22,579 nucleotides of DNA from a virus. Position numbers and translations under genes: made by a program. Below the pieces are notes generated by a model. That model saw nothing but the letters and a program-made list of their open reading frames with translations. It did not search any database and was not told the origin of the DNA. Shown here in pieces: positions 7,607 through 21,382 of the stretch; within the stretch, counting starts at the first letter, position 1; each line of letters starts with the position of its first letter. The stretch is taken from positions 1-22,579 of the IMG/VR virus record IMGVR_UViG_3300007345_000307, one strand, 5' to 3'.

Positions 7607-10600
7607 TGGCTAAACAGATTAAACAAGCCTTAATTGCAACTATAATAGTTATTGGTGGTGCACTGTTAGCTCCAGTATTTGGTGGTACAGCATTAGCTTC
7701 AGGTGCACTCACAGCTTTAGCAGCAACAACTTTTGCAACAACACTTGTAGCAAGTGTCATAGGAAAGATGACATCCAAGGGAATTGATGCATCTGCAGGA
7801 AATTTTGGTACAAAATTTGCAACTCGTGCACCACTTGCACCAAGACAAATTGTCTATGGAGAATGTCGTGTAGGTGGAACTATGGTTCATATAGAAACCA
7901 CAGGCACAGATAATTATTTATTACACATGGTAGTTGCTATTGCAGGGCATGAAATTGAAAGCCTAGAAACGCTTAGACTAAATGATATAGATACTACAAC
8001 CTCAACATCAACAATAAGTGGTTCAACAGTCTACACAGTAACTAATGCTGATTTTACTAACACTGAAAATGACAATAATTTTGGTAGTGGTAGATTGGTT
8101 CGTTACTCTTTTGAAGATGGTAGTCAAACAGCAGTCAATGGTTTTATGGATGCACAGCTTGGAAGCATGGGTACAACTGACAAATTTTTAGGTGTTGCTT
8201 ATGTGTATATACAAATGGTTTTTGATGCAGAAAAGTTTGGTGGTGGGATGCCTGCAGTATCATTCAAAGTTAAGGGTAAAAATATTTATGACCCACGAAC
8301 AGGTGCAAACGCAACAACGGATTTACAAAGATCAAACCCTGCTTTAATTATTAGAGATTATTTAACAGATACACAATATGGTTTAAAAGCCAAAGCATCT
8401 GAGATAAATGACACTACTAATGCAGGTGGTATTGCTTCTGCTGCAAATACTTGCGATCAAAATGTAACTTTAGCAGATGGTGTAACAACAGAAACAAGAT
8501 ATACAGCAAATGGTTTTACTAATTTTAGTGCTAACGGAAATGGTGTTTTAGAATCTGTACTTAGCTCTATGGCAGGGAAAATGTCATATGTGAATGGACA
8601 ATTTACAGTGTTTGCAGGTGCATCACAAACACCAACCTTAACAATTACTGATGATGACTTATTAGCACCAATTTCTATTTCTACAAATTCAAGCAGTGGT
8701 GATTTATACAACTCAGTGAAACCTATATATGTTGATAGAGGACTTAACTACATATCAACAGATGCAGAAGTTTATCAAGATTCAACATTCTTAAATGAAG
8801 ACACTCCTAGTGGTGAAAGCACAGCAAATTATGTAAAGCAAATGGAAACACAATTGCCATTTACTGTTACGGATACTATGGCACAAAGATTGGGTCGCAT
8901 AGCATTAAAAAGCCAAAGACAGTCAACATCTTTATCAGTTTTAGTTAGCTTGCAATTTATGAGGTGTCAACCGAATGATTGGGTGTACTTAACAAATGAA
9001 AGGCTTGGTTATACACAAAAAACTTTTGAAGTCTTGTCTACTAATATGGAAGTTATACAGGATGGGGATGTTCCAGTTATAGCAACAAGATTAGAACTTA
9101 AAGAAGTAGAAGCATCTGTATTTAACTTTGCAACAAATGATTACACCACAGGTCAAGCAGAAGGCTCTGATGTGTCAACAGGTAATTACAGTGTAACCGC
9201 ACCGTCAAACCTTTCCCTTGCACAGCAGAACGCCATTGACGGCACAACCAGTAAGGTAGACATAATTGTATCTTGGACTAACAACGCTAGTGATAAAGTT
9301 GTGCTTACTGAAATAACTTATAAGCTGAACGGAGATGCAAACTACACATCAGACTTCACAGCAGGTAAAGGTGTAACAAGCGCATCTATTCCTAATGTGG
9401 TGGTGGGTAGCACTTATAATGTCAAGATACGACACATAGATGTTAATGGTGTGGCTAGTGCTTATACAAGCGTAGTAAGTATAGCAATAGCAGAAGCAGG
9501 CACTACACCAAACGCACCAACAAATTTATCAGCAACAACTGGCGGTACAATGATTCTTGTATCTTGGACTAATCCAAATGTGACTGATCTGCGAGCAGTT
9601 AAGGTTTATAGGAAAACAACTAATTCAACTCCAACAAATGATAACGATTTGGTTGAAACAATTGCAGGTGAGCCTAATGCAATAACGACTACTTTGTTTG
9701 GAGATCAAGATGGTCTTACAGCAGGTACAACTTATTACTTTTGGGTGCGAGCAATCAATCACTCAGGGCAACACTCAAGCTTTAGTAGTTCAGTAAACGG
9801 TAACTTTGCAGCAGCAGGCGTTGCTGATGGCTCAATAACAACTCTAAAACTTGCAGCAGAAGCTGTAACTAACGCCAAAATAGCAGTTGCAGCCATACAG
9901 GGAGATGTTATTGCAGCAGGTGCAATTACAGAAGCAAAATTAGGTGTTGATTCAGTTACTGCAGCCAAAATTGCAAATAACGCAGTTGATACAGCGCAAA
10001 TAGTTTCGGATGCTATAACAGCAGCCAAAATAGCGACAAATACTATTACGAGTAATGAGATTGCTCCAACAACTATAGTGGGCGGTAATTTAGTCAATGG
10101 CACTATAGACACACTGCAAATAGCTAATGATGCTGTAACTAATGCTTTAATAGCAACAGATGCTGTTAATCAAGATTCTATTGCAGCTAATTCAGTGACA
10201 GCAACACAAATAGTTGCAGGAACAATTACAGCTAATGAAATTGCAAGTAATGCTATTACTGCCGCTAAAATAAACGCTAATGCAGTTACAACAGATAAGC
10301 TCGCAGCAAACTCCATCACAAGTGTAAAAATAGCTGCAAATCAAATTACAACAAACGAAATTGCAGCAGGAACAATAATTGCAGGCAACATAGCAACGAA
10401 TGCGATTACATCAGACAAAATAATTGCTAACGCTATAACTACAGCCAAAATTAATGCAGGAGCAATTACAGCAGACGAGATAGCATCTAATGCAATTACA
10501 ACAATTAAAATTGCTGCGAATGCAATTACAGCAAATGAACTGGCTGCAAACTCAGTAACAGCCGCAAAAATTGTCGCAAATACAATCACAGCATCTGAGA

Positions 10601-11247
10601 TAGCAACAAATACAATTACAGCAACACAAATTGCAGCAGGTGCAATAGCAACAGATGAATTGGCAGCAGATGCAGTAACGGCAGCTAAGATTGTTGCAGG
10701 CACTATTACAGCTACAGAGATAGCAAGTAACACTATTACAGCAGATAGAATTAATGTAACTGATCTAGCTTTAAACTTTGAAGCGGCGACAGTTTCAGGG
10801 GCAACAATAGGTGCTTGGCAAAATAACACAAAAAGATTAAAACTGGTGGCTGATTTAGGAACTGAAGCAGGGGTATATCATATTTTTTGTAGAGTTTTTG
10901 GTAGCACTGGGCAGGTCAAAACTTTGTCAATAGTTGCAGGTGATGGAACTTTTGGTTCAGGTGCAAGTTTTGAGCTTAGAAGCGATATTGAATATTCAGA
11001 TGATAGTGCTCCAACTATTCCAACAGCAGATCAGGGCTATGCTCAATATCATTCAGGACTTTCAGAGTATTGGTCTGCTATTGCAAGGTTTGATAGCGCA
11101 AATGAAATGGTGCAAAAAGATTTTATGGTTAGAAAAATAAGTGGCACATCAAGAACATTAAGACTTTATGTAAATGCTCAGGGAGATGGCAACAATAGAT
11201 ATTTGTCAAATGTTCAGTATGGATTCTATAAATTCTCGGAGATTTAA
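7606..11247 (+). CDS. Tail tip / host-specificity protein with FN3 domains and decad-repeat stalk
   Basis: The 1213-residue product begins with a hydrophobic segment (about residues 8-55). A phage J/GTA gp15-like region follows: APRQIVYGECRVGGTMVHIE near residues 80-100, AGHEIESLETLRLND next, and a domain around 200-260 with GMPAVSFKVKGKNIYDPRTG. Further on, AQRLGRIALKSQRQS and a PNDWVYLTNERLGY segment are typical of tip proteins. Two fibronectin type III-like domains lie at about 530-630 and 633-728. Residues 743-1052 are 31 ten-residue repeats, then a C-terminal domain of about 160 residues that could bind receptor. The protein would sit at the tail tip and contact the host. The hydrophobic N-terminus is usual for this group. 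Confidence 0.9.
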   Translation: MAKQIKQALIATIIVIGGALLAPVFGGTALASGALTALAATTFATTLVASVIGKMTSKGIDASAGNFGTKFATRAPLAPRQIVYGECRVGGTMVHIETTGTDNYLLHMVVAIAGHEIESLETLRLNDIDTTTSTSTISGSTVYTVTNADFTNTENDNNFGSGRLVRYSFEDGSQTAVNGFMDAQLGSMGTTDKFLGVAYVYIQMVFDAEKFGGGMPAVSFKVKGKNIYDPRTGANATTDLQRSNPALIIRDYLTDTQYGLKAKASEINDTTNAGGIASAANTCDQNVTLADGVTTETRYTANGFTNFSANGNGVLESVLSSMAGKMSYVNGQFTVFAGASQTPTLTITDDDLLAPISISTNSSSGDLYNSVKPIYVDRGLNYISTDAEVYQDSTFLNEDTPSGESTANYVKQMETQLPFTVTDTMAQRLGRIALKSQRQSTSLSVLVSLQFMRCQPNDWVYLTNERLGYTQKTFEVLSTNMEVIQDGDVPVIATRLELKEVEASVFNFATNDYTTGQAEGSDVSTGNYSVTAPSNLSLAQQNAIDGTTSKVDIIVSWTNNASDKVVLTEITYKLNGDANYTSDFTAGKGVTSASIPNVVVGSTYNVKIRHIDVNGVASAYTSVVSIAIAEAGTTPNAPTNLSATTGGTMILVSWTNPNVTDLRAVKVYRKTTNSTPTNDNDLVETIAGEPNAITTTLFGDQDGLTAGTTYYFWVRAINHSGQHSSFSSSVNGNFAAAGVADGSITTLKLAAEAVTNAKIAVAAIQGDVIAAGAITEAKLGVDSVTAAKIANNAVDTAQIVSDAITAAKIATNTITSNEIAPTTIVGGNLVNGTIDTLQIANDAVTNALIATDAVNQDSIAANSVTATQIVAGTITANEIASNAITAAKINANAVTTDKLAANSITSVKIAANQITTNEIAAGTIIAGNIATNAITSDKIIANAITTAKINAGAITADEIASNAITTIKIAANAITANELAANSVTAAKIVANTITASEIATNTITATQIAAGAIATDELAADAVTAAKIVAGTITATEIASNTITADRINVTDLALNFEAATVSGATIGAWQNNTKRLKLVADLGTEAGVYHIFCRVFGSTGQVKTLSIVAGDGTFGSGASFELRSDIEYSDDSAPTIPTADQGYAQYHSGLSEYWSAIARFDSANEMVQKDFMVRKISGTSRTLRLYVNAQGDGNNRYLSNVQYGFYKFSEI
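9832..10761 (+). repeat. 31 tandem ten-residue (30-base) repeats in the tail tip protein
   Basis: Residues 743-1052 of the tip protein divide without gaps into 31 decads with consensus [AST]-[IV]-T-x-x-[KEQ]-[IL]-x-[AS]-[NGD], for example AITAAKIATN and TITANEIASN. The strict ten-residue period with hydrophobic positions 2 and 7 suggests a regular elongated fold (trimeric fibre or beta-solenoid stalk). At DNA level the units diverge at third positions, so this is an old, selected repeat rather than a recent duplication. Confidence 0.92.
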
Positions 11248-11600: not shown

Positions 11601-11987
11601 ATGCAACAAGACGGAAGATTTAGCGGAGACATGGATAGAAACGAAGTAGAAATGGACTTAAATAAGTTCATGGCTATGATAGAAGAAATCGGTCAACTTA
11701 AAGATAAGATTAGAGAACTAGAAGATGCTACTAATGTTAATCCTTGGCAAAAAGTCATACACCTAGCAAGAGCCGTAGACTCATGGCGCATATTCCCTAG
11801 AATATTTGTGATTGTATACATCTATCTAATGTATGAATCAGTCATATGGTTTATGAATCTACCTGAGCCTAACCTTGAACAATCAGCATTAGTATCTGTA
11901 GTCGTAGGCGCTATGGGTGTTGTGTTTGGTGTTTATTCAGGCAAGTCAGGGCAAAGCAAAAATTTCAAAGGTGAAGAAGATAAGTAA
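11601..11987 (+). CDS. Holin-like membrane protein with two membrane segments
   Basis: The 128-residue product has a polar, coiled-coil N-terminal half (residues 15-45, MAMIEEIGQLKDKIRELED). Two membrane segments follow, at about 69-87 (FPRIFVIVYIYLMYESVIW) and 97-115 (LVSVVVGAMGVVFGVYSG), then a charged tail (KNFKGEEDK). Small membrane proteins of this layout after the tail genes are often holins or holin-like, and the pattern GAMGVVFGVYSGKS is familiar from marine phage genomes. A strong RBS (AGGAG, nine bases) supports the start. It is the last plus-strand gene before a convergent minus-strand pair. Confidence 0.7.
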   Translation: MQQDGRFSGDMDRNEVEMDLNKFMAMIEEIGQLKDKIRELEDATNVNPWQKVIHLARAVDSWRIFPRIFVIVYIYLMYESVIWFMNLPEPNLEQSALVSVVVGAMGVVFGVYSGKSGQSKNFKGEEDK

Positions 11988-12077: not shown

Positions 12078-12845
12078 TCATTCATGATCGTATGTCTTAC
12101 CATATTTGTTATTTCTTTCTACTAGTTCCAAAGCATATTGATATGCCATTTTCCAAGAGTCTGAGTGATCTGTCATTTCATCAAACCATTCTTCTCTGTA
12201 TTCATCTTCTCTAATATCCCAAACTTCACACTTAAAATATTCAAACCCACAATCGTCATCATATTCAAGCCAATCGTGTTCTTGACAAAGTTTTATTAAT
12301 TTTTGTTTAGGTGAAACTCTTGTTTTCTTAATTGGTTTTGGTAATGGCTCTTCACTGCACTTAGCAAATGGTTTTATTCTTTTAGAAAGTTTAAGAAGTT
12401 TCCATGTGTAATCAAACTCCTTAAAGTCTACATTATTTTCATTAAGACTTTTTGCTAATTCTTTAAATGTAGGTTGGTGTGGGTGATATGCTACCAATAA
12501 ACAACAATAAGCACTTACAAATTTTGGTCCGTGTATATCTTTACTTAGAAGATGTGCGTATTCATGCAAGATAACATTGTAATTTAATGCCCAATCTCTT
12601 TTAAGTAATATTCTTTTTCTTGAAGCATTACTTGTACCTCTGCCATTTGAAAAAACAACTTTAGTTTTTCTTTTTTGATCATGTATATGATAGAAACCAC
12701 TTTTATCAAAAACTATAAAAGGCAAATTATTATCTAATTTCTGTATACACTTTTTAACTTGATCTTCAGTCAGGTAACTATTCCAAGTCCACCATGGTTG
12801 CGAGTGTTCCCAATCGTAAACTTTTTTTGCTTGATAATCTCTCAC
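12078..12845 (-). CDS. Putative zinc metallopeptidase (HExxH)
   Basis: The 255-residue product has HEYAH at residues 94-98 and a third likely ligand in HGPKF (His105). It is preceded by a helix-forming WALNYNVIL and followed by FVSAYCCLLVAYH. HExxH-x6-H in a VILHEYAHLL-HG-KF context resembles small zincin-type peptidases seen in phages and actinobacteria (TIGR04338/SprT-like groups). The exact family is unsure. A Cys/His-poor acidic C-terminus with WLEYDDDCGFEYFKCEVWD follows. It starts at GTG 12845 in a GTGA overlap with the upstream gene, with AGGAG three bases before. The substrate is unknown. Confidence 0.75.
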   Translation of the reverse strand: MRDYQAKKVYDWEHSQPWWTWNSYLTEDQVKKCIQKLDNNLPFIVFDKSGFYHIHDQKRKTKVVFSNGRGTSNASRKRILLKRDWALNYNVILHEYAHLLSKDIHGPKFVSAYCCLLVAYHPHQPTFKELAKSLNENNVDFKEFDYTWKLLKLSKRIKPFAKCSEEPLPKPIKKTRVSPKQKLIKLCQEHDWLEYDDDCGFEYFKCEVWDIREDEYREEWFDEMTDHSDSWKMAYQYALELVERNNKYGKTYDHE

Positions 12846-13192
12846 TTTCTTCTCCTATATGTACCATTGGAGAATGGGTTAAAGTTTTTTGGTTTACCAT
12901 CTTTGTCTAAAATATAGTCAGAATGTCCATCTGCTTTTTTATGCAAATCTTCGTTACTGGATTTATATTTATAGATCTGATCATCTTTAATAAGATTGCA
13001 TAAATCTTTGATTTGATCATGTAAGCAGGAAGTGCCTGTTGCTTGCCATTCGTATTGTGTATGTAAAGATAGCCAGTGTGATACTGTACCTTCACCAAAA
13101 ACACCAGTGTCAGAGTAGCAGGTTTCCCAATCTACCATTTCTTTACCGTTATCTAATAACCTTACGGCTAATTTATTAATAGTTTTATTCAT
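12842..13192 (-). CDS. Hypothetical protein, first gene of the minus-strand pair
   Basis: The 116-residue product starts at ATG 13192 (MNKTINKLAVRLL) with GAGG five to six bases upstream. An in-frame ATG at 13225 lies inside the -10 box of the promoter proposed here, so the longer form is unlikely. The sequence has Trp-rich middle segments (VDWETCYSD, VSHWLSLHTQYEW), a helical part (LHDQIKDLCNLIKDD) and a basic C-terminus. I recognise no family. It is coupled to the peptidase gene by a GTGA overlap. Confidence 0.68.
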   Translation of the reverse strand: MNKTINKLAVRLLDNGKEMVDWETCYSDTGVFGEGTVSHWLSLHTQYEWQATGTSCLHDQIKDLCNLIKDDQIYKYKSSNEDLHKKADGHSDYILDKDGKPKNFNPFSNGTYRRRK

Positions 13193-13220
13193 TTTATCCT
13201 CGTTTAATTTATATAAGGGC

Positions 13221-13249
13221 ATCATAATAAAAAAAATACCTTTTGTAAA
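13221..13249 (-). promoter_or_regulatory. Sigma70-type promoter for the minus-strand pair
   Basis: On the minus strand TTTACA (plus 13244-13249) is followed after exactly 17 bases by TATGAT (plus 13221-13226). Each box matches the bacterial consensus at five of six positions. Transcription would start near 13214, giving a leader of about 22 bases before ATG 13192 with a GAGG site. This is the clearest promoter in the window. Confidence 0.65.
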
Positions 13250-13301: not shown

Positions 13302-13595
13302 ATGGATGCTTTTACACTAATAGAAGATGTAGGGTTGCCTATAGCTAGTGGCTTGGTTATGGGCTATTTTATATTTCTTATCATGCAACAGATGATGAAC
13401 GGCTTGGTTAATAAGATTAAGACTGTAGAGGGCATTGCAAAAATGCTTATTACTAGAGCATCAATAATGAATAACGACATGATACGAATTGATACAAGCG
13501 TTTCTAGTGCCTTGAATTTGCCACCTGACCTAGATCGTATAGCAAGGGCAGAAAACTTCGTAGAGGACGGCAAGATAGATGCTAGGCGTGATTAA
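13302..13595 (+). CDS. Membrane-anchored protein, paralogue 1, head of curli-secretion operon
   Basis: The 97-residue product has one N-terminal membrane segment (about residues 8-30, VGLPIASGLVMGYFIFLIM) followed by a helical region. MGYF and NDMIRIDTSVSSAL align with LGYF and QDMIRLQQKVNTVL of the next gene, so the two look like tandem paralogues. The function is unknown. Similar small anchor-plus-coil proteins occur near lysis and secretion genes of marine phages, as far as I recall. It starts the plus-strand operon, and its stop (TAATG) is coupled to the next gene. Confidence 0.72.
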   Translation: MDAFTLIEDVGLPIASGLVMGYFIFLIMQQMMNGLVNKIKTVEGIAKMLITRASIMNNDMIRIDTSVSSALNLPPDLDRIARAENFVEDGKIDARRD

Positions 13596-13837
13596 TGGAT
13601 ATAGTCGCACTTATTGATAAGTTTGGTTTTACCACAGTCATGGTCGTTGGCTTGGGCTACTTTGTTTATTATGTGTGGATTACCATAACCAAAACCATTG
13701 ACCCTGCTGTAGCAGAAATGCAAAAGACTATTATTAGGCTTACCGATCAATTAAGGTTGTTAGATCAAGATATGATACGATTACAACAGAAAGTAAACAC
13801 TGTTTTAAAATTAAAAGATTTTGAGGAAAAAAAATGA
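13595..13837 (+). CDS. Membrane-anchored coiled-coil protein, paralogue 2
   Basis: The 80-residue product has a membrane segment (about residues 10-32, FTTVMVVGLGYFVYYVWITI) and then a coiled coil to the end, with MQKTIIRLTDQLRLLDQDMIRLQ. It resembles the preceding protein in the GYF and DMIR motifs. Such an anchor with a periplasmic or cytoplasmic coil could be a scaffold, a holin-like factor or an adaptor for the secretion pore; none is proven. It overlaps the next ATG by ATGA. Confidence 0.75.
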   Translation: MDIVALIDKFGFTTVMVVGLGYFVYYVWITITKTIDPAVAEMQKTIIRLTDQLRLLDQDMIRLQQKVNTVLKLKDFEEKK

Positions 13838-13920
13838 TTGATTTTTTAATTAACTTACTTGTTGCATTATTATCAGCAGGACTAATCATGTCTTGGTTTG
13901 ACGACAACCATCCGTTATGA
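13834..13920 (+). CDS. 28-residue membrane peptide
   Basis: The short frame encodes a single membrane helix (IDFLINLLVALLSAGLIMSW) and an acidic polar end (DDNHPL). It is precisely fitted between its neighbours: ATGA overlap with the stop of the gene before and ATGA overlap with the csgF start after, with a GAGG site seven bases upstream. This junction pattern is the main support for translation. The function is unknown. Confidence 0.6.
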   Translation: MIDFLINLLVALLSAGLIMSWFDDNHPL

Positions 13921-14390
13921 AGAAACTAAGCAACGATCAATTAATTGCTTTTGGCTTGATAGGTTTGTTGTTGACTATTTTATTTTCTTTGGCTATCAAT
14001 GCAGACGAAATGACACATAGTTTTAAAAGCCCTAGTTTCTCAGGTGTCGGCACATCCAGTCATTATTTGACCATAGAAAACCAAGAGTTCAACAGAAAGA
14101 AAGCAATTGCTGATGAGATTAAAGCCTATCAAGAAGATTTAGAAAGAGAAGCAGAAAACACCACACTGGCTAGGTTTATAAGAAACCTTGAAAGCAGGAT
14201 TTATGCACAGCTTAGTAGACAACTTGTGGATAACCTTTTTGGTGAAACACCTAACGAATCAGGAACATTAGAGTTGGAAGGCAACACTATTGAATACTCA
14301 ACAGACGGAGATTTTATAACTTTAAAAATAACGGATGCAGATGGAAACACGACTGAAATTACTTTGCCTATTGGGGATTTTTCTTTCTAG
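13917..14390 (+). CDS. csgF: CsgF-like curli assembly/transport protein
   Basis: The 157-residue product has a signal-peptide-like N-terminus (hydrophobic 10-27, likely cut after INA). The N-terminus after it contains SFKSPSFSG, matching the F-x-N-P-x-F-x-G motif of CsgF that threads into the CsgG pore. The C-terminal domain (about 82-157) has a helix ARFIRNLESRIYAQLSRQLV and strands with GTLELEGNTIEYS, FITLKITDADGNTTEITLP. This corresponds to the 'F--AI-S-I---LL' helix and 'YIVDIAN...L-V-D--TGQT--I-V' strands of the E. coli protein. E. coli CsgF is 138 residues, so this one has a longer middle. In curli systems CsgF caps the pore and links export to fibre nucleation. The adjacent csgG settles the call. 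Confidence 0.87.
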   Translation: MKKLSNDQLIAFGLIGLLLTILFSLAINADEMTHSFKSPSFSGVGTSSHYLTIENQEFNRKKAIADEIKAYQEDLEREAENTTLARFIRNLESRIYAQLSRQLVDNLFGETPNESGTLELEGNTIEYSTDGDFITLKITDADGNTTEITLPIGDFSF

Positions 14391-15171
14391 TTGCACCAAC
14401 TGGTCCATATTAGATAACTACATTCCACCAGTTAGCCTAACCAAACAGGCAGAAGTTGGAACCTTAATTAACAAAGAACTAGCAAACATTGGTAAGCCTT
14501 TTATTAAGCCTACTATAGCTGTATACCCCACAAGCTTTACAGATCAAACAGGACAGCGTAGAAGCAACAGTAGTTACGCATCTTTCTCCACAGCCATAAC
14601 CCAAGCACCTCATGCCTATCTTATTCGTGCATTGAAGCACGCAAGTGATGGAGAGTTTTTTGATGTGGTGGAAAGGGTTGGACTGGATAACCTAACCAAA
14701 GAAAGACAGCTAATCAGATCAACAAGAAAAGATTTTAAAGAAAGCAAAGACTTATTGCCCCTTACATTTGCAGGTTTGTTAATGGAAGGTGGTGTGATAG
14801 GATATGAGAGCAACATAAAGTCAGGTGGCTTAGGTGCTAGATATTTGGGCATAGGCTCAACCAAAGAGTACAGACAGGACATTGTTACCGTCTCTTTGCG
14901 TACCGTTTCTGTAAGTACAGGAAAAGTATTGACTGAAGTGTTGACCACAAAATCAATTCTTAGCGTAGCTATAAGTCAAGATGCTTTTCGTTTTGTTTCC
15001 AATGACACAGAGTTAGTGGAGATAGAAAATGGCATGGTTGAAAATGAATCTGTGAATATTGCACTTCAAAACGCAATAGAAACGGCAGTCTTAGAAACCA
15101 TACAATTAGGTTTAAAGAAAAATTTATGGAGCATAATAAATGAAGAAATACTTAATGCTATTCGTGGTTAG
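14341..15171 (+). CDS. csgG: CsgG-like outer-membrane curli secretion pore lipoprotein
   Basis: The 276-residue product (E. coli CsgG is 277) has a lipoprotein signal with lipobox LSSC (Cys18). It shares CsgG landmarks: an IAVYPTSFTDQTGQ strand, SFSTAITQAPHAYLIRAL, the ERVGLDNLTKERQLIR segment, and GGVIGYESNIKSGGLGARYLGIG (about 150-172), which is nearly the E. coli sequence. V-LRTVSVSTGKVL and a C-terminal AIETAV helix also match. CsgG forms a nonameric outer-membrane channel. The start is either ATG 14335 or 14341, both inside the end of csgF; 14341 gives the neater signal peptide. At the constriction, residues matching E. coli Tyr51 and Asn55 appear to be Ser, while Phe56 is kept. Confidence 0.94.
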   Translation: METRLKLLCLLGIFLSSCTNWSILDNYIPPVSLTKQAEVGTLINKELANIGKPFIKPTIAVYPTSFTDQTGQRRSNSSYASFSTAITQAPHAYLIRALKHASDGEFFDVVERVGLDNLTKERQLIRSTRKDFKESKDLLPLTFAGLLMEGGVIGYESNIKSGGLGARYLGIGSTKEYRQDIVTVSLRTVSVSTGKVLTEVLTTKSILSVAISQDAFRFVSNDTELVEIENGMVENESVNIALQNAIETAVLETIQLGLKKNLWSIINEEILNAIRG

Positions 15172-15838
15172 TTTTTTGTATGCAGATAATGAGGTTTATG
15201 TAGATCAAGTAGGCGCAACTTTTAACTTAGATATAGAACAACTCGGTTCATCAAACTTGATCGGTGGTGCTAATGCTGTATCAGGAACTATGACCGCACT
15301 TGATCTTGATGGTACTACAATGACTTTAGACATCAATCAAATTGGTGATAGTAATAAATTTCTAGGTGATATAACTGCTGATACCTTTACAGGTTTTTTT
15401 GAGTTTGACGGTGATAGCAATACATTCAACATACAAACTGACCCTACAAATACTTATGGTGCTGACAGTGGTAACTTTAATGTAGATGTTACTGGTAGCA
15501 GTAATACTTTTACTTTAGATGTTGCAAACAATGATCTAGCAAGCACGCTTGACCTTGACTGGATTATCCAAGGCGACAGCAATACTTTTGATTTTGATAT
15601 AGACTATGATTTGGCAACAAATTATGTAGATGTAGATGGAGATTCAAACACAATTAATTTTGACGCAGATGGATATTCAGGTGGATATTTCTATCTTGAT
15701 CACACAGGTAATTCTCGCACATTCAACATAGATCAACAGAGTACATTAGCAAGTGATTGGTTACAGATCAATTCAAATGGCAGCAGTGGTACTGTTTGTG
15801 TCATTCAAAGTGATGGCGGTACAGTTACAAGTTGTTAA
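15140..15838 (+). CDS. Curlin-like repeat protein, probable exported amyloid subunit
   Basis: The 232-residue product has a short signal peptide (MKKYLMLFVVSFLYA). Eight repeats follow, centred on G-(D/S)-S-N-x-(F/I) followed by alternating hydrophobic residues, at about residues 36, 69, 91, 119, 145, 167, 190 and 214. The spacing is mostly 22-28, close to the 22-23-residue curlin repeat, and QIGDSN resembles the curlin Q-x-G-x-x-N core. It is Asp/Asn/Ser-rich and nearly free of Lys/Arg after the signal. Two Cys (220 and 232) flank the last strand, unusual for curlins. RBS GGAG lies eight bases before ATG. Its place after csgF and csgG makes it the likely cargo. Confidence 0.82.
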   Translation: MKKYLMLFVVSFLYADNEVYVDQVGATFNLDIEQLGSSNLIGGANAVSGTMTALDLDGTTMTLDINQIGDSNKFLGDITADTFTGFFEFDGDSNTFNIQTDPTNTYGADSGNFNVDVTGSSNTFTLDVANNDLASTLDLDWIIQGDSNTFDFDIDYDLATNYVDVDGDSNTINFDADGYSGGYFYLDHTGNSRTFNIDQQSTLASDWLQINSNGSSGTVCVIQSDGGTVTSC

Positions 15839-16862
15839 TATTGGTGATGTATCAGAACTAACAGGCAACGCACAAGTATTAAGGGACAAGCCTTATAAAG
15901 CTGAGTTAGACTTCAACATTCAGCAAAATGATAATGTTGAAACCACCAATGGTCGCATAGCAATAAAGTTTCTTGACGACTCAACAGTCAAGCTTACGGA
16001 ACACTCTCAACTCACCATAGATGAGTACATCTTTGACCCCAACCCATCTAATTCTAAGCTTGCTCTAAACTTTGCAAGTGGAACTGCTAGGTTCATTACA
16101 GGACAACTAGGCAGGATAGACAAAGAAAATATAACTATCCAAACGCCTACTGCAAATATAGCCATTCGTGGAACAGACTTTACTGCTACTGTAGATGAGT
16201 TAGGTCGCAGTCTAATAATTTTATTGCCTGATGCAGACGGCATATCTAGTGGTGAAATTATGGTTACTACTGCTATGGGTACTGTATTGTTGAATAAGCC
16301 TTATGAAGCAACCACGACCACAGTATTTGAAAGTTCACCAAGCAAGCCAGTCATCTTAGATTTAACTTTAGACCTAATAGACAATATGCTTATTGTTAAA
16401 CCACCACAAGAAGATGTACTGCAAAAGGAAGAAAGCACCATATCTTCTGACAATGTTTTGGATGTAGACTTTTTAGAGTTTGATGGTCTTGATGCTGACT
16501 ACTTTGCAAAGGATGAACTAGAGTTCACTGAGCTTGATATCAACTTTCTTGATGTAAATTTCTTTGAGGACTTACTAAAGATTATAGATGAGCTTGATAA
16601 ACTGAATGAAGATGACCTTAATCAAGAGCAAACCATAACAAGGATTACTGGTACAAAAGTAGGACAAGATACTGCAACACAAATTATAACTTTGGTACAA
16701 GGTGAAGTTATTTCCCTGCGTAGACAAGTTGAACAATCCGCACAGGTTGATCTAAACTCTAGTCAAGGGTACACAGTTATATTTATACAGAACGGTGTTT
16801 CAAATACTGTTAAAATTAATGGTGGTGGCGATTCAGTGATAAAGATAGTGCAAGGCTCATGA
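15753..16862 (+). CDS. Exported FecR-domain protein with curlin-like C-terminus
   Basis: The 369-residue product (GTG 15753; ATG 15777 also possible) begins with a signal peptide ending near VMA. It then has a FecR domain at about 28-190: GDVSELTGNAQVLRD, NVETTNGRIAIKFLDDSTVKL, then ITIQTPTANIAIRGTDF, the hallmark of this fold. FecR domains are periplasmic sensing/binding modules; classical FecR also has a cytoplasmic anti-sigma part and a membrane helix, absent here. Residues 220-295 are very acidic. The last 30 residues contain FIQNGVSNTVKI and GDSVIKIVQ, resembling curlin repeats. The first 86 bases overlap the end of the curlin gene in another frame, and the stop overlaps the cyclase start (ATGA). 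Confidence 0.85.
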   Translation: MIGYRSIQMAAVVLFVSFKVMAVQLQVVNIGDVSELTGNAQVLRDKPYKAELDFNIQQNDNVETTNGRIAIKFLDDSTVKLTEHSQLTIDEYIFDPNPSNSKLALNFASGTARFITGQLGRIDKENITIQTPTANIAIRGTDFTATVDELGRSLIILLPDADGISSGEIMVTTAMGTVLLNKPYEATTTTVFESSPSKPVILDLTLDLIDNMLIVKPPQEDVLQKEESTISSDNVLDVDFLEFDGLDADYFAKDELEFTELDINFLDVNFFEDLLKIIDELDKLNEDDLNQEQTITRITGTKVGQDTATQIITLVQGEVISLRRQVEQSAQVDLNSSQGYTVIFIQNGVSNTVKINGGGDSVIKIVQGS

Positions 16863-18631
16863 AAAAAACACTTATATTCATAGCGGTTATATTTGGCTTG
16901 TCATTACCAATGGTATATCAGACAACGCCATACCAAACTTTAAAGCTTAAAACATTTGATGCTTTAATCCACAAGCAAGAACCCACAGGATTTTTTACAA
17001 TACTTAACATAAATGAAGAAGATGTTATCAAAGAAGGTGGTTATCCTTTTCCAAGATCAAGACTTGCAGAAATACAAAAAAAACTTTATGGCAATGGTGC
17101 TATCGGTGTTGGTTGGGTAATAGCTTTTACTGAAAAAGATAGGTTTGGTGGAGATGCAGATTTTGCTATGTCTATGCGTATGACCTTCCCCACAGTATTG
17201 GCTATGTTTAATAATGAAAGCAATGATTATCCACCAACTACAGGAACGGTTATTTTAGGGGAAAACATACAAGGCATAAAAGCTAATGGGGTAAGACAAA
17301 ATATACCTATGTTTCAAACATCAGCATCACAAGGGGTAGCTTCTGCACCTACTGAAGTTGATAATTTAGTACGACAAATACCTTTGCTTATGCAAACACC
17401 TGACGGATGGGTGGCTTCTTTTGGAACTGAGGTGCTAAAAGCATTAGCGCAGCAAAAGACTTACATTATAAAAGGCAGTGAAAACGGCATAGAAGAAATA
17501 TCTGTTAGGGGAATACCCCCTACAAAATTAGATAAGTTCGGCAGACAATGGATTAGTTGGGTAGATACGCCACAAACAACACTGCAAGAAATGGATGTTG
17601 AAGGCAAGTTTGTTTTTGTTGGTGTGACTGCTAAAGGTGTTATGCCACAGATAGCAACACCAGTTGGTCTTTTAGAGCCACATAAAATACAAGCTGCACT
17701 ATCGGAATCAATATTGCTTGATAGCAGTTCTTATGTACCAAACTGGAATTTAACAGGAGAATTAGGTATTTTTTTGGTTTTAGGCGCACTGACATGGCTT
17801 CTATTGAACGCTTTGGGTATAACATGGGGTTTAGTATTAACCAGTTTATTGCATTTATCTGTAGCTTATGGTGGTTACTGGATAATAAATAAGGGTATTT
17901 TGCTTGATGTTACATGGTCTTTAATCTCAGGATTTATTATTGCATCAACCGCTTTCTATTTAAGGTTTAGAGAGCAATACAAACTTAGACAACAAATCAA
18001 GAAACAATTTGAACATTACCTAGACCCAAGACAGGTCAAACAATTGCAAAAGAATCCTGATCTTTTGAAACTCGGTGGAGAGAAAAGAACCTGCACATTT
18101 TTGTTTACTGATCTAAGAGGTTTTACCGCATTGTCTGAATCTGTAACGCCTGAAAAAGTTACTTACATTATGAATAAAGTTTTGACAGCACAACAAATAG
18201 CCGTTCAAAAACATGGGGGCATGGTTGATAAGTATATAGGGGATGCAATGATGGCAATATTCAACGCTCCTTTGGACTTAAAAAATCACAGCATGGTTGC
18301 TGTAGCTTGTGCATTAGACATACTGCAAAATATCAAAGACCTTAATGAAGAATTAATATCAGAGGGTTTGCCAAGTATTGCTATTGGTATAGGTATTAAT
18401 AGTGGCGAAGCCATCATAGGCAACATGGGAAGTGAAAATAGATTTGATTACACAGCTATAGGTGATGCTGTGAACACAGCAGCTAGATTGGAAAGTGCTA
18501 CAAAAGAAAGAGAAGTTGATTTGCTTATAGGGGAGCAAACAGAAGTTTACTGTGGTTTTTATTTAGAGCCTTTAGAACCTATAATGGTTAAAGGTAAAGC
18601 AAAACCATTAAATATATTTACATGGAAATAA
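16859..18631 (+). CDS. CHASE2-domain class III adenylate cyclase
   Basis: The 590-residue membrane protein has an N-terminal signal/anchor helix (4-20) and a periplasmic CHASE2 sensor (about 25-295, with ILNINEEDV, GGYPFPRSRLAEI, GAIGVGWVIAF). Three membrane helices follow (about 301-320, 322-345, 348-368), a short linker, and a class III cyclase domain (about 408-590). Metal-binding Asp418 (FTDLRGF) and Asp462 (YIGDAMMA), substrate Lys458, Thr532 in place of the usual adenine-selecting Asp, and Asn539/Arg543 (VNTAAR) are all present. This is the class IIIb adenylate cyclase pattern, so it should be active and make cAMP. It lies in the curli-secretion operon, with overlaps on both sides. Confidence 0.93.
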   Translation: MKKTLIFIAVIFGLSLPMVYQTTPYQTLKLKTFDALIHKQEPTGFFTILNINEEDVIKEGGYPFPRSRLAEIQKKLYGNGAIGVGWVIAFTEKDRFGGDADFAMSMRMTFPTVLAMFNNESNDYPPTTGTVILGENIQGIKANGVRQNIPMFQTSASQGVASAPTEVDNLVRQIPLLMQTPDGWVASFGTEVLKALAQQKTYIIKGSENGIEEISVRGIPPTKLDKFGRQWISWVDTPQTTLQEMDVEGKFVFVGVTAKGVMPQIATPVGLLEPHKIQAALSESILLDSSSYVPNWNLTGELGIFLVLGALTWLLLNALGITWGLVLTSLLHLSVAYGGYWIINKGILLDVTWSLISGFIIASTAFYLRFREQYKLRQQIKKQFEHYLDPRQVKQLQKNPDLLKLGGEKRTCTFLFTDLRGFTALSESVTPEKVTYIMNKVLTAQQIAVQKHGGMVDKYIGDAMMAIFNAPLDLKNHSMVAVACALDILQNIKDLNEELISEGLPSIAIGIGINSGEAIIGNMGSENRFDYTAIGDAVNTAARLESATKEREVDLLIGEQTEVYCGFYLEPLEPIMVKGKAKPLNIFTWK

Positions 18632-18846
18632 AAAAATTCATTCGTTGGTTTATAAGTTTATTTCAACAACGCTATCAAGTAAGAGTCTCTTTTAACAAAG
18701 AATATGGTGATGCAGACGACAAGGTTTATGTATGCAAAAAAATTCTTGTGCAAAAAGAAAACCATCTTAAATTTCGCAATTTAGACAATAAAGTTATAGA
18801 GTATAGAAGTGCAGGTGGACTAAATTACATTATTGAGGATATGTAA
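18622..18846 (+). CDS. Hypothetical 74-residue protein after the cyclase
   Basis: The product is basic at its N-terminus (EIKKFIRWFISLFQQRYQVR), which could lie along a membrane as an amphipathic helix. A small beta region follows (DKVYVCKKILVQKENHLKFRN, VIEYRSAGGLNYIIEDM). I recognise no family. The start overlaps the end of the cyclase gene by ten bases without a visible RBS, suggesting translational coupling. Its stop overlaps the next ATG (TAATG). It may be a cytoplasmic partner of the cyclase or secretion genes, which is inference only. Confidence 0.65.
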   Translation: MEIKKFIRWFISLFQQRYQVRVSFNKEYGDADDKVYVCKKILVQKENHLKFRNLDNKVIEYRSAGGLNYIIEDM

Positions 18847-19241
18847 TGCAACAGATTCTAGTTGGAATTATTATTATGCTAGGTTTAGCTACTTACTATT
18901 TCTATAGTCAAAATCAAATACTTACAGCCAACAATGCAGCGTTAGAGGGCGCAGTTGCAACACAAGAAGAAGCCATAGCATCCATACAAGCTGACTTTGA
19001 ATTGCAAACACAACAACTGCAAGACCTGACAGTCAAAAGCCAAGCTGCACAAAAAGAATTGAATAGATATACACAGTTTATACAAAACTACGAGTTAGCA
19101 TCTAAGATACTTGCTGACCCAGTAGAAATGGAGAGGAAAATAAATAATGGTACAAAGCATATCATGGAAAACATTGAGCAAATCAGCAGTGATGTTGACG
19201 GTCTTGATGATGGCTTACAGTTGCAGCCTACTTCCGACTAG
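18846..19241 (+). CDS. Rz-like inner-membrane spanin candidate
   Basis: The 131-residue product has one N-terminal membrane anchor (about residues 4-20) followed by a long coiled coil (about 25-85, with AALEGAVATQEEAIASIQADFELQ and QDLTVKSQAAQKELNRY) and a polar tail. This anchor-plus-coil layout is that of i-spanins, which span the periplasm to fuse membranes at lysis. The following gene overlaps it by 95 bases in another frame, as is common for Rz/Rz1 pairs, and a lysozyme lies about 0.9 kb downstream. The GAGG before ATG supports the start. Confidence 0.68.
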   Translation: MQQILVGIIIMLGLATYYFYSQNQILTANNAALEGAVATQEEAIASIQADFELQTQQLQDLTVKSQAAQKELNRYTQFIQNYELASKILADPVEMERKINNGTKHIMENIEQISSDVDGLDDGLQLQPTSD

Positions 19242-19536
19242 AGAAATACAGGTAAGCGCCAAACCTATTGAAAGAAAGATAGTTCAACCTGTCATGCCTA
19301 GAGAAATTGACCTAAGGGAATTGCAGTGGATGACTGTTACGCCTGATAACTGGGAAGATCAATTGGCAAGAATAGAGCAACAAGAAGGTGAGTTAGTGTT
19401 CCTTGCTATGACGATTCCTGACTATGAAGTCATGGCATACAATATGCAAGAGATCAAAAGATACATTACAGAACTAAAGGATGTAGTTGTTTACTACCGA
19501 AAAGTAACAACTGAAAACCTTTCAATAGAAGAATAA
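19147..19536 (+). CDS. Possible outer-membrane spanin partner or lipoprotein
   Basis: The 129-residue product has a signal-like N-terminus (residues 9-25, SKSAVMLTVLMMAYSC). The Cys25 could be lipidated, although AYSC is not an ideal lipobox. Pro-rich sequence follows (SAKPIERKIVQPVMPREIDLREL), then a domain with WMTVTPDNWEDQLARIEQQ and a helical end. Overlap in a different frame with the Rz-like gene and a Pro-rich post-Cys region suggest an Rz1-type o-spanin. It is longer than typical Rz1, closer to unimolecular or LysC-variant lengths. RBS GGAGAGG precedes the start by about ten bases. Confidence 0.6.
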   Translation: MVQSISWKTLSKSAVMLTVLMMAYSCSLLPTREIQVSAKPIERKIVQPVMPREIDLRELQWMTVTPDNWEDQLARIEQQEGELVFLAMTIPDYEVMAYNMQEIKRYITELKDVVVYYRKVTTENLSIEE

Positions 19537-19572: not shown

Positions 19573-19734
19573 ATGGGAATGATAGGAGAATGGATAGGAA
19601 TAATCACAGGAGTAGTATGTTTAGCATCTATTATCTGTGCATTAACTCCGACTCCGAAAGATGATGCAATGATCGGAAAGTTCTATAAATTTTTAGAACT
19701 TATGGCATTGAACATTGGAAAAGCTAAACAGTAA
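19573..19734 (+). CDS. 53-residue membrane protein, holin-like
   Basis: The short frame has a membrane helix (WIGIITGVVCLASIICAL) followed by TPTPKDDAMIGKFYKFLELMALNIGKAK. The 'ALTPTPKDD---GK-YK-LE--ALNIGKAK' pattern is familiar from small phage proteins close to lysis genes. I recall it as recurrent, without a known function. An excellent RBS (TAGGAG) supports translation. It lies between the spanin-like pair and the nuclease gene. Confidence 0.72.
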   Translation: MGMIGEWIGIITGVVCLASIICALTPTPKDDAMIGKFYKFLELMALNIGKAKQ

Positions 19735-19766: not shown

Positions 19767-20162
19767 ATGGCAAATACAGTTACACCATTCGTTTATAACG
19801 CAATCTTAGAAAGGGTCGTAGATGGCGACACCGTTGATGTTACTCTTGACTTGGGCTTCTCTGTCCATCTAAAAAAACAACGCTGCAGGTTGGCAGGCAT
19901 AGATACGCCTGAGTCAAGAACTCGCAACCTAGAAGAAAAAGCATTAGGTTTAAAAGCAAAAGAAAGACTAAAAGAACTATGCGTGGGGTCATTTAAAATA
20001 CAATCATTAGGAAAAGGTAAATATGGCAGAATACTTGCAATCCCTTATACGGAAGATGGTCAAGACATTTGTCAAATGCTTATCAAAGAAGGTCACGCAG
20101 TTGAATACTGGGGTGGAACTAAAAAAGCAAAAGTCAGAGATGACGGAACTTGGGGTGAATAA
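19767..20162 (+). CDS. Thermonuclease-like (SNase fold) nuclease
   Basis: The 131-residue product carries the staphylococcal nuclease motifs: RVVDGDTVDVTL (Asp21), RLAGIDTPES (Arg41, Asp46, Glu49) and KYGRILA (Arg88), matching the metal and catalytic residues. A LIKEGHAVEYWGG helix-loop closes the fold. There is no signal peptide, so it should act in the cytoplasm, where it might cut host DNA or RNA late in infection. The length is typical of a single SNase domain. One base separates its stop from the lysozyme ATG, indicating co-expression. Confidence 0.92.
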   Translation: MANTVTPFVYNAILERVVDGDTVDVTLDLGFSVHLKKQRCRLAGIDTPESRTRNLEEKALGLKAKERLKELCVGSFKIQSLGKGKYGRILAIPYTEDGQDICQMLIKEGHAVEYWGGTKKAKVRDDGTWGE

Positions 20163-20163
20163 T

Positions 20164-20607
20164 ATGCATATATCAGATGAAGGAATTTCATTAGTTAAAA
20201 AGTTTGAAGGCTGTAAGTTAGAAGCATATCAATGTGCTGCAGGTGTTTGGACTATAGGCTATGGCTCAACGCATGGTGTACAGAAAGGAGATGTTTGGTC
20301 GCAAGAAAAAGCAGAAGTTATGCTTATTGACGAACTAGAAGAATACGGCAAGTATGTAGAAGAATTAGTAACTCTACCTCTCAATCAATGTCAATTTGAT
20401 GCTCTTGCTTCATGGACATTTAACTTAGGACCAAGCAACTTGCAGAGCAGCACAATGCTTAAGGTTTTAAATTCAGGCGATTATGAGGGTGTTCCAAATC
20501 AAATAAAGAGATGGAATAAAGTTAGCGGTCAGGTAAATGATGGTTTGATTCGTAGACGAGAAGCAGAAGCATTGTTATTTGAGGGTAAGCATTGGGAACA
20601 TATCTAG
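20164..20607 (+). CDS. T4-type lysozyme endolysin (glycoside hydrolase 24)
   Basis: The 147-residue product has the GH24 catalytic pattern E-8-(D/C)-5-T in KKFEGCKLEAYQCAAGVWTIGYG: Glu, Cys and Thr at the expected spacing. It also has LPLNQCQFDALASWTFNLG and IRRREAEALLF, all typical of phage lysozymes. It cleaves the sugar backbone of peptidoglycan. No N-terminal signal-anchor helix is seen from ATG 20164, so release would need a holin. A longer frame from 20023 exists but only overlaps the nuclease gene. GGGGTGA upstream of ATG serves as RBS. Confidence 0.95.
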   Translation: MHISDEGISLVKKFEGCKLEAYQCAAGVWTIGYGSTHGVQKGDVWSQEKAEVMLIDELEEYGKYVEELVTLPLNQCQFDALASWTFNLGPSNLQSSTMLKVLNSGDYEGVPNQIKRWNKVSGQVNDGLIRRREAEALLFEGKHWEHI

Positions 20608-20824: not shown

Positions 20825-21382
20825 CTAAATCCAGTCAGCACCTTCGTACCATCCAACAAGGCTGAATCTCTCGCCCTTAGTTACCTTAGTGACTCTGTGA
20901 TAAAGAAAAGAAGGAAACACTAGGATTGTTCCTTTTTCTCTTAGCTTCTTTTGATCTAGTTTGCCTATATCTTTACTAAACTCAAAGTCTCCACCGACAT
21001 AATCAATACTGTCTGATAGTTGAACTGTAATGCTTAACTTACGCTGTGAACTATTATCGTAGATGTTTGAATCCATGTGATAGTCATAGAAGTCACCCTT
21101 GCCATACTTAGCTATTTGAAACTCAAAGTATCTATTTAATTGCACACCAAAGCATTCACGATTTGCCATAGTTATATAAGGCTCAATAATTCTATTAAGA
21201 TATATCCCATGTTTAGAATCAAAACTACAAGGCAGAACATTAGATGATCTTACGGACTTATCAATATTAGCTACATTTCCTACCTTTGCTTCTTTGGTTT
21301 TGCCTTCAAGGTATAAAGACTTAATTGCTTCACAATATTCTTCACTGAGTTCTGCTTGCCATGAATAGCAGTAGGTGTTCAT
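20825..21382 (-). CDS. 2-oxoglutarate/Fe(II)-dependent oxygenase (PKHD-type)
   Basis: The 185-residue product has the facial triad HxD...H: His102 and Asp104 (YDYHMDSN) and His162 (FLYHRVTKV), with the 2-oxoglutarate-binding Arg172 (GERFSLVGW). YVGGDFEF and GTILVFPSFL are typical of the double-stranded beta-helix of prolyl 4-hydroxylase/PKHD-type enzymes. Such oxygenases are common in marine phages; the substrate is unknown. It is the last gene of the minus-strand run and ends one base from the convergent plus-strand gene. Confidence 0.92.
   Translation of the reverse strand: MNTYCYSWQAELSEEYCEAIKSLYLEGKTKEAKVGNVANIDKSVRSSNVLPCSFDSKHGIYLNRIIEPYITMANRECFGVQLNRYFEFQIAKYGKGDFYDYHMDSNIYDNSSQRKLSITVQLSDSIDYVGGDFEFSKDIGKLDQKKLREKGTILVFPSFLYHRVTKVTKGERFSLVGWYEGADWI

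Follow-up and report, generated by a model that had tools for sequence, protein, structure and literature searches.

A removable curli-type secretion core beside the lysis genes of a siphovirus-type phage contig, with an optional cyclase tied to its FecR domain

The curli, or type VIII secretion, system of Escherichia coli is encoded by csgBAC-csgDEFG. Modules of this type have also been described from pelagiphages of the myo- and podovirus type (PMC9599517, PMC9004378 and PMC7029224). PMC9599517 reports phage modules without CsgE, includes FecR and a cyclase in its myo- and podovirus modules, labels the upstream genes 'histidine kinase, sometimes two' and FecR an iron-responsive regulator, and places the origin of the module in Alphaproteobacteria. 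Curli-type cassettes are common in marine phage contigs (at least 596 related CsgG-encoding stretches in an alignment-based CsgG scan, of which the best 80 were kept). Here we consider such a cassette on the virus stretch IMGVR_UViG_3300007345_000307, the whole of which, 22,579 bases, we call the window. Its module proper extends from csgF to the cyclase gene (13917-18631) on a siphovirus-type contig and encodes CsgF, CsgG, a curlin-repeat cargo, an exported FecR-domain protein and a CHASE2 adenylate cyclase. The module is real, widespread, selectively maintained and of a known kind; what is new is its removable core beside lysis genes, a corrected reading of its neighbours and of the FecR protein, and a FecR-cyclase pairing that comes in two versions. 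We lean towards an explanation in which this phage type VIII cassette, placed in the lysis operon, exports an anchored curlin-like fibre late in infection, with the FecR-reading cyclase as an optional sensor. A vague notion of 'curli in phages' is thus turned into concrete, testable parts, namely the timing late in infection, the anchor protein and the pairing of FecR with CHASE2.

Pfam profile searches bear out a sequence-only reading of this DNA that had placed CsgF, CsgG, FecR and a CHASE2-cyclase here; CsgF, CsgG, FecR, CHASE2 and the cyclase domain all score above the Pfam cut-offs. CsgF (E-value 6.6e-18) is 49% identical to CsgF of the gammaproteobacterial contig L078 (loci are numbered with the prefix L), and a four-row profile reached PDB CsgF at E 0.11 at best. 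CsgG matches its family at 8.7e-48 and PDB CsgG at 2e-43, and its Cys20, a lipoprotein-like site, is invariant in 15/15 aligned relatives. The curlin-like character claimed for the cargo is borne out at profile level: a profile of 15 relatives finds PDB 8c50, a 'Curlin associated repeat-containing protein', at 3.1e-8, whereas the Pfam curlin repeat (PF07012) was not reached at E up to 1. The repeat Gln, Gly and Asn are among the cargo's invariant columns, its model is all-beta with a predicted local distance difference test score (pLDDT) of 90, and, of 24 bacterial csg loci, 16 contain an open reading frame (ORF) matched by the phage cargo profile (per-locus E of 0.01 or lower). NCBIfam CsgB was matched at 0.019 only, and the cargo model, compared with PDB folds, had no match below E 0.001. 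In a further fold comparison the CsgA fibril 8enq came at rank 22 behind other beta-solenoids (Z 9.7, root-mean-square deviation 8.7), too weak alone, and was left unused. CsgE, CsgC and CsgD were found in none of the 20 window proteins scanned with Pfam, as the sequence-only reading had it.

The relatives come from a CsgG scan (70 viral loci) and from viral scans with alignments or with small-protein or FecR queries, of each of which the best 80 matches were kept; L004-L159 include 12 loci from genome assemblies and some repeated contigs (L086=L019, L087=L023, L088=L032), and profiles were counted on loci from which they were built. The visible gene order is csgF-csgG-cargo-fecR, with the cyclase next in most, and wherever the locus is long enough the cargo (129/129) and FecR (117/117) are retained. 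The ratio of non-synonymous to synonymous divergence (dN/dS) is 0.02-0.20 for cargo, FecR and cyclase between the window and seven loci with estimable dS, many of these dS values lying above 1; the highest ratio for a core gene is 0.36, for csgF against L012.

The four genes csgF-csgG-cargo-fecR are gained and lost together, as one block, between two small-protein genes and the spanins. When the second small protein was used as query, 130 loci had 1200 bases or more of downstream sequence (repeated contigs included); of these, 120 have curli genes and 10 have none. These 10 are seven distinct contigs, five with an identical second small protein; the genes that come after the small-protein pair there encode spanins and lysozyme, or lysozyme only in the case of L290. 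That the core comes and goes as a block follows from two empty sites. Both flanks of the cassette-less L364 align with those of L065 (87% and 85%) and overlap by 11 bases where they meet; the extra sequence in L065, about 2.94 kb, corresponds to csgF to fecR. Likewise the flanks of the empty L295 align with L146 (85% and 91%), leaving 204 bases of L295 unmatched. The two small proteins and a 74-residue protein downstream go with the surrounding genes, since relatives that have no cassette, or no cyclase, still carry them. The cluster of eight overlapping genes described from sequence only has therefore to be reduced: the 13302-13837 pair and the gene at 18622-18846 lie outside the module, and a gap of 79 bases separates the end of the second small-protein gene (13837) from the start of csgF (13917). 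Similarly, of three small membrane proteins claimed, the description holds for the pair, and the 74-residue protein is by eye not clearly a membrane protein.

At least in the cassette-less lineages compared, the two small proteins belong to the lysis cassette. They may in addition have a link to the curli genes, because in the phage collection relatives of the first occur in only six records, all with CsgG and FecR. Among the 121 loci of L004-L159 with room for it, 119 have a phrog_18771-type protein upstream of csgF; the other two, L078 and L084, are both from genome assemblies. At an E-value limit of 1, Pfam gave no HisKA or HATPase_c match for either small protein (13 rows of the second included), and NCBIfam gave none for the two and three relatives. 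The place of the pair beside spanins and lysozyme in cassette-less relatives would suit a holin; no holin family was matched. Downstream, the 74-residue gene and the spanins follow directly after the module in the window and near relatives; in ten cyclase-less loci opened, FecR is followed by the 74-residue gene (2), by an Rz or Rz-like ORF (7) or, in L027, by a 160-residue ORF and then lysozyme. A lysis gene lies within 6.5 kb downstream in 40 of 60 long loci (L004-L159). Late expression is read from this position, because promoter and terminator counts in a scan were not above those of shuffled sequence.

The FecR protein (Pfam match 4.7e-11) has a signal helix, a FecR domain at about 28-205, a low-confidence stretch at 211-294 and a C-terminal beta domain at about 300-369, ending by eye in a curlin-like motif. 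Its fold compares with PupR 6ovk (Z 16.1, root-mean-square deviation 2.3, 135 residues); ahead of the FecR domain there is only a helix of about 20 residues, with no cytoplasmic anti-sigma domain. The first half also matches the 'cell surface anchoring domain' of the adhesin 5ix9 (72/76 residues) at Z 7.2, a score within the range of common arrangements. This match was excluded as a hint about the C-terminal domain, the aligned range, 27-121, being FecR domain. A FecR profile found nothing among PDB sequences. Of 16 bacterial loci opened (14+2), 15 have the FecR domain starting 92-137 residues into the open piece, and 11 of the 16 lie in frames of more than 1,000 residues. From this placement in bacterial frames, together with the weak 5ix9 match, we infer that the phage protein is an anchor rather than an iron regulator. 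Fourteen bacterial loci examined for FecR apart from curli showed FecR in 10 by an ORF rule and csgF or csgG in none; a cyclase gene is adjacent to FecR in one of them, L353, and some 2.6 kb off in another, L359, and the adjacency in L353 suggests that the FecR-CHASE2 pair may have a wider use.

The last gene of the module matches CHASE2 at 3.2e-25 and Guanylate_cyc at 1.9e-20, and Asp418, Asp462, Lys458, Asp536, Asn539 and Arg543, which we take to be metal- and adenine-binding, are all present in the alignment, as would be expected of a CHASE2 class III adenylate cyclase. It is found in 63 of 82 loci (L004-L159). On trees of 92 loci with all three genes (17 cyclase-less), presence of the cyclase requires 6 changes for CsgG, 6 for the cargo and 3 for FecR; with FecR split, over 98 viral loci, 2 changes suffice on the FecR-domain tree and 6 are needed on that of the C-terminal half. 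Residue 132 is Pro in 79 of 80 cyclase loci of this first set and Asn in all 18 viral cyclase-less loci; the bacterial L078, cyclase-less, has Pro132. A second set consists of distinct FecR sequences from loci outside the first, 26 loci with FecR identical to the first set and further duplicates having been dropped. There, Pro132 and Leu87 occur together in 98 of 99 cyclase loci, and the 34 cyclase-less loci all have Val87, with Asn132 in 32 and Ser132 in 2. Over the 227 distinct FecR sequences of both sets (173 with and 54 without cyclase, the latter enriched, as in the second set, by two FecR scans with cyclase-less queries), 10 of 178 FecR-domain columns reach an absolute Matthews correlation coefficient of at least 0.9 with cyclase presence. 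The presence of the cyclase is thus tied to the FecR-domain allele, a strong association and not proof of contact, and the suggestion that the module carries 'its own sensory arm' gains support from this coupling. One could suppose instead that the coupling is merely historical, a single FecR-domain allele having been carried along when the cyclase was lost or gained and then dispersed through recombination. The two changes on the FecR-domain tree leave few independent events, and the module does recombine, as this account needs. However, simple linkage fails as an explanation because the C-terminal half is encoded closer to the cyclase gene than the FecR domain is, yet shows no tie (0/162 columns at 0.9, best 0.645), and neither do CsgF, CsgG and the cargo (best columns 0.49, 0.42 and 0.47). 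We consider a purely historical coupling less likely than not. Perhaps the FecR domain at the fibre base is a direct ligand of CHASE2, with cyclic AMP reporting fibre export and with two matched cassette versions, whose FecR is either of the cyclase type or self-sufficient; this more specific proposal is tentative, and we would put it somewhat short of even chances.

Recombination is visible at the level of whole backbones. The module occurs on siphovirus-like backbones, on podovirus-like ones (with a tail protein related to HTVC023P and HTVC027P among others), on a third type with its own terminase and portal, and in two myophages; the CsgG tree shows 11 backbone changes among the labelled rows of a 147-row set, of which 75-78 rows carry no assignment. 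Between the window and the podovirus-type L023, dS is 0.51 for FecR, 0.39 for the cyclase and 0.76 for the cargo, against 1.86 for csgF, 3.01 for csgG and 1.92 for lysozyme, and because of this difference cargo-fecR-cyclase appear to have been exchanged recently between siphovirus and podovirus-type backbones. Against L012, dS is 0.10-0.36 for csgG, cargo, fecR and csgF, 0.67 for the cyclase, 0.65 for lysozyme and 1.2-2.8 for the small proteins, the 74-residue protein and Rz. Module parts thus lie far below most flanking genes in dS in both comparisons, a sign of recent recombination within siphoviruses too.

In the explanation we favour, CsgG-CsgF pores would assemble in the host outer membrane late in infection and export the cargo as a curlin-like beta-solenoid, and the fibre would remain attached to the cell. 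The FecR-domain protein would be both anchor and nucleator of the fibre: its FecR domain would stay on the periplasmic side, joined to the C-terminal curlin-like beta domain by an unstructured linker able to span the pore, and the protein would perhaps substitute for CsgB and CsgE, neither of which was found in the window. Where the CHASE2 cyclase is present, it would sense, through the inner membrane, what state the FecR domain is in and respond by making cyclic AMP. As to the benefit of the fibre, we can only guess at keeping sister cells or debris near the burst, or at blocking further adsorption. Several points weigh against this explanation. The lysis site is not universal, 20 of the 60 long loci showing no lysis gene within 6.5 kb downstream and the modules of the pelagiphages HTVC008M and Melnitz lying away from annotated lysis genes, and no clumping was seen with the cultured relative Melnitz (PMC9004378). 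The FecR model is moderate (mean pLDDT 71, predicted template modelling score 0.51), the 5ix9 score is the commonplace one given above, the last 75 FecR residues found nothing in the PDB, their curlin-like motif being read by eye, and the bacterial FecR of L078 has no clear C-terminal motif of this kind. As for the coupling, L122 has Asp132 with a cyclase, one cyclase locus of the second set is Gly132/Val87, and the trees were quick ones without bootstrap and with long-branch warnings, built on related sequences with few independent events. The explanation as a whole is, moreover, drawn from computation.

Alternatively, the CsgG-CsgF pore might itself be the point, permeabilising the outer membrane or timing lysis together with the small proteins, spanins and lysozyme, with cargo and FecR as plugs. 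The location in the lysis cassette would suit such a role, and a role in lysis has been proposed for Melnitz (PMC9004378). The complete retention and purifying selection of cargo and FecR nevertheless make a bare pore for uptake or lysis, one of the roles first envisaged for these genes, less likely, and the seven distinct relatives that retain small proteins and lysis genes have no cassette. Spanins, furthermore, already breach the outer membrane. We regard the pore account as improbable. Superinfection exclusion, in which fibre or pore would hide the phage receptor on the infected cell, deserves about the same modest weight: exchange of the module among backbones that may share hosts (10 backbone changes on the 92-locus CsgG tree) would be in keeping with it, but a late-operon position is late for exclusion and no link to a receptor was found. 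Finally, an iron-responsive FecR regulator with upstream histidine kinases, as named in PMC9599517 and as the FecR-domain match might suggest, is very hard to reconcile with a FecR domain behind a signal helix without an anti-sigma part, with the lack of any sigma factor when 29 window proteins were compared with Pfam or PHROGs, and with small proteins of 97 and 80 residues that match no kinase.

Returning to the contig that carries the fibre-exporting cassette proposed here, we note that it is not a chimera, because 25 of the 26 window queries occur, each at 100%, in L031 (20,469 bases compared out of a 44,135-base record) and the junctions recur in relatives; the 26th query, the tail tube, lies beyond the L031 stretch compared. 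Gene order from p128 through the cyclase to Rz is the same in L012, L019 and L066, and in L010 without the cyclase. The siphovirus-like tail and lysis layout noted earlier is also evident. A module for a long, non-contractile tail occupies the left part (head-tail adaptor, tail terminator, tail tube, tape measure of 640 residues, distal tail protein and central fibre J of 1213 residues). After it come two minus-strand genes, the pair of small proteins on the plus strand, the curli-type block, and then spanins, SNase and lysozyme (Table 1). Some neighbouring features may be recorded. Fibre J has, by eye, a long run of degenerate short repeats at 9700-10900, with alternating ITA, AKI and NEIA-like units. 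A 128-residue protein directly after the tail genes (11601-11987; phrog_10198, unknown function) has hydrophobic stretches by eye and is a holin candidate that many relatives also carry. Between it and the small proteins lie the two minus-strand genes (12078-13225; 255 residues with a sub-threshold SprT-like match, and 127 residues), seen in relatives' gene tables only in L031 and the window's own locus, L001. After lysozyme, on the minus strand, comes a 2OG-Fe(II) oxygenase (20825-21382; PF13640, 1.9e-15), retained in several close relatives.

Table 1. Genes of the curli-type module and of the adjoining lysis cassette in the window
Feature	Position	Strand	Remarks
Small protein 1	13302..13595	+	97 residues; one N-terminal hydrophobic helix and helical tail (by eye); phrog_18771; lysis-cassette neighbour
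Small protein 2	13595..13837	+	80 residues; same PHROG as small protein 1 (phrog_18771); final gene ahead of the cassette
CsgF	13917..14390	+	PF10614
CsgG outer-membrane pore	14335..15171	+	PF03783
Curlin-repeat cargo	15140..15838	+	Profile match to PDB 8c50; all-beta model
Exported FecR-domain protein	15753..16862	+	PF04773
CHASE2 adenylate cyclase (predicted), optional module member	16859..18631	+	CHASE2 and Guanylate_cyc; catalytic motifs
74-residue protein, function unknown, travels with spanins	18622..18846	+	Retained in L010 and L014, both without cyclase
Rz-like spanin	18846..19241	+	
Rz1-like spanin	19147..19536	+	
53-residue protein, lysis cassette	19573..19734	+	One hydrophobic helix (by eye); no Pfam match
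SNase-domain nuclease	19767..20162	+	
Phage lysozyme (endolysin)	20023..20607	+	

L078 (JAUILI010000001.1), a contig of a gammaproteobacterial metagenome-assembled genome (MAG) with ordinary metabolic genes, tops the 24 bacterial csg loci with 186.5 bits for CsgF and 317 for CsgG (next 73.5 and 262), and it alone among them is matched by the phage FecR profile. The bacterial sample is small: CsgF was found in 5 of 289 genomes of one class, including a MAG with phage contigs, and in 28 of 293 of one order, from which 20 regions in 20 genomes were opened. Within this sample, the nearest cellular locus would be gammaproteobacterial. The FecR profile matches 72 of 289 genomes in the class of a Maricaulis MAG at E 1e-20, that MAG's own FecR matches being phage contigs. 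In the family of a Pelagibacter MAG, CsgF occurs in 2 of 197 genomes, one on the phage contig L085 and the other on L182, which holds a complete phage-type module. A SAR11 host is our guess, from these Pelagibacter-family matches and the exchange with podovirus-type contigs. Contigs with the phage-type module (L074, L075, L076, L085 and L182) are binned into bacterial assemblies, namely those of Maricaulis, Neomarinimicrobiota, Pelagibacter and another genome from the Pelagibacter family, so that curli could easily be credited to these bacteria by mistake.

The relation to marine pelagiphage clusters, suggested earlier, is confirmed by the myo- and podovirus modules in PMC9599517. The HTVC023P-type podoviral and the myoviral pelagiphage systems there resemble the window in their order, (upstream small genes)-CsgF-CsgG-CsgA/B-FecR-(CsgA/B)-cyclase, in the absence of CsgE, CsgC and CsgD, and in transfer between phage families; the window differs in its siphovirus backbone, its removable core beside lysis genes and its single cargo, and we read its small proteins and FecR differently. 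Since the small proteins match the 'histidine kinases' of that paper by place and number and have no kinase domain, the kinase label is a probable mislabelling; a CsgG search of the phage collection yielded none of the published podovirus genomes. As to the novelty once suggested for both backbone and accessory content, the latter is not new, FecR and cyclase being in PMC9599517, and the siphovirus backbone for a curli-type module may be new to print: in the open-licence literature searched, among the part of the matches listed, we found no report of a siphovirus-backbone module, of its placement in a lysis cassette or of the FecR-cyclase tie. The curli genes of HTVC008M and Melnitz (PMC7029224, PMC9004378) have the same order and both small proteins, with proteins 29-47% identical; they differ in their Kyanoviridae (myophage) backbones and in an extra gene between fecR and cyclase, annotated as curlin-repeat in Melnitz and as hypothetical in HTVC008M. 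The type VIII system of L078 has the order csgF-csgG-cargo-cargo-fecR, with three curlin-like ORFs and with no upstream small proteins or cyclase found. The Escherichia coli system differs in having CsgE, CsgB, CsgC and CsgD and in being without FecR and cyclase, and shares with the window the CsgG and CsgF homologues and a curlin-repeat substrate.

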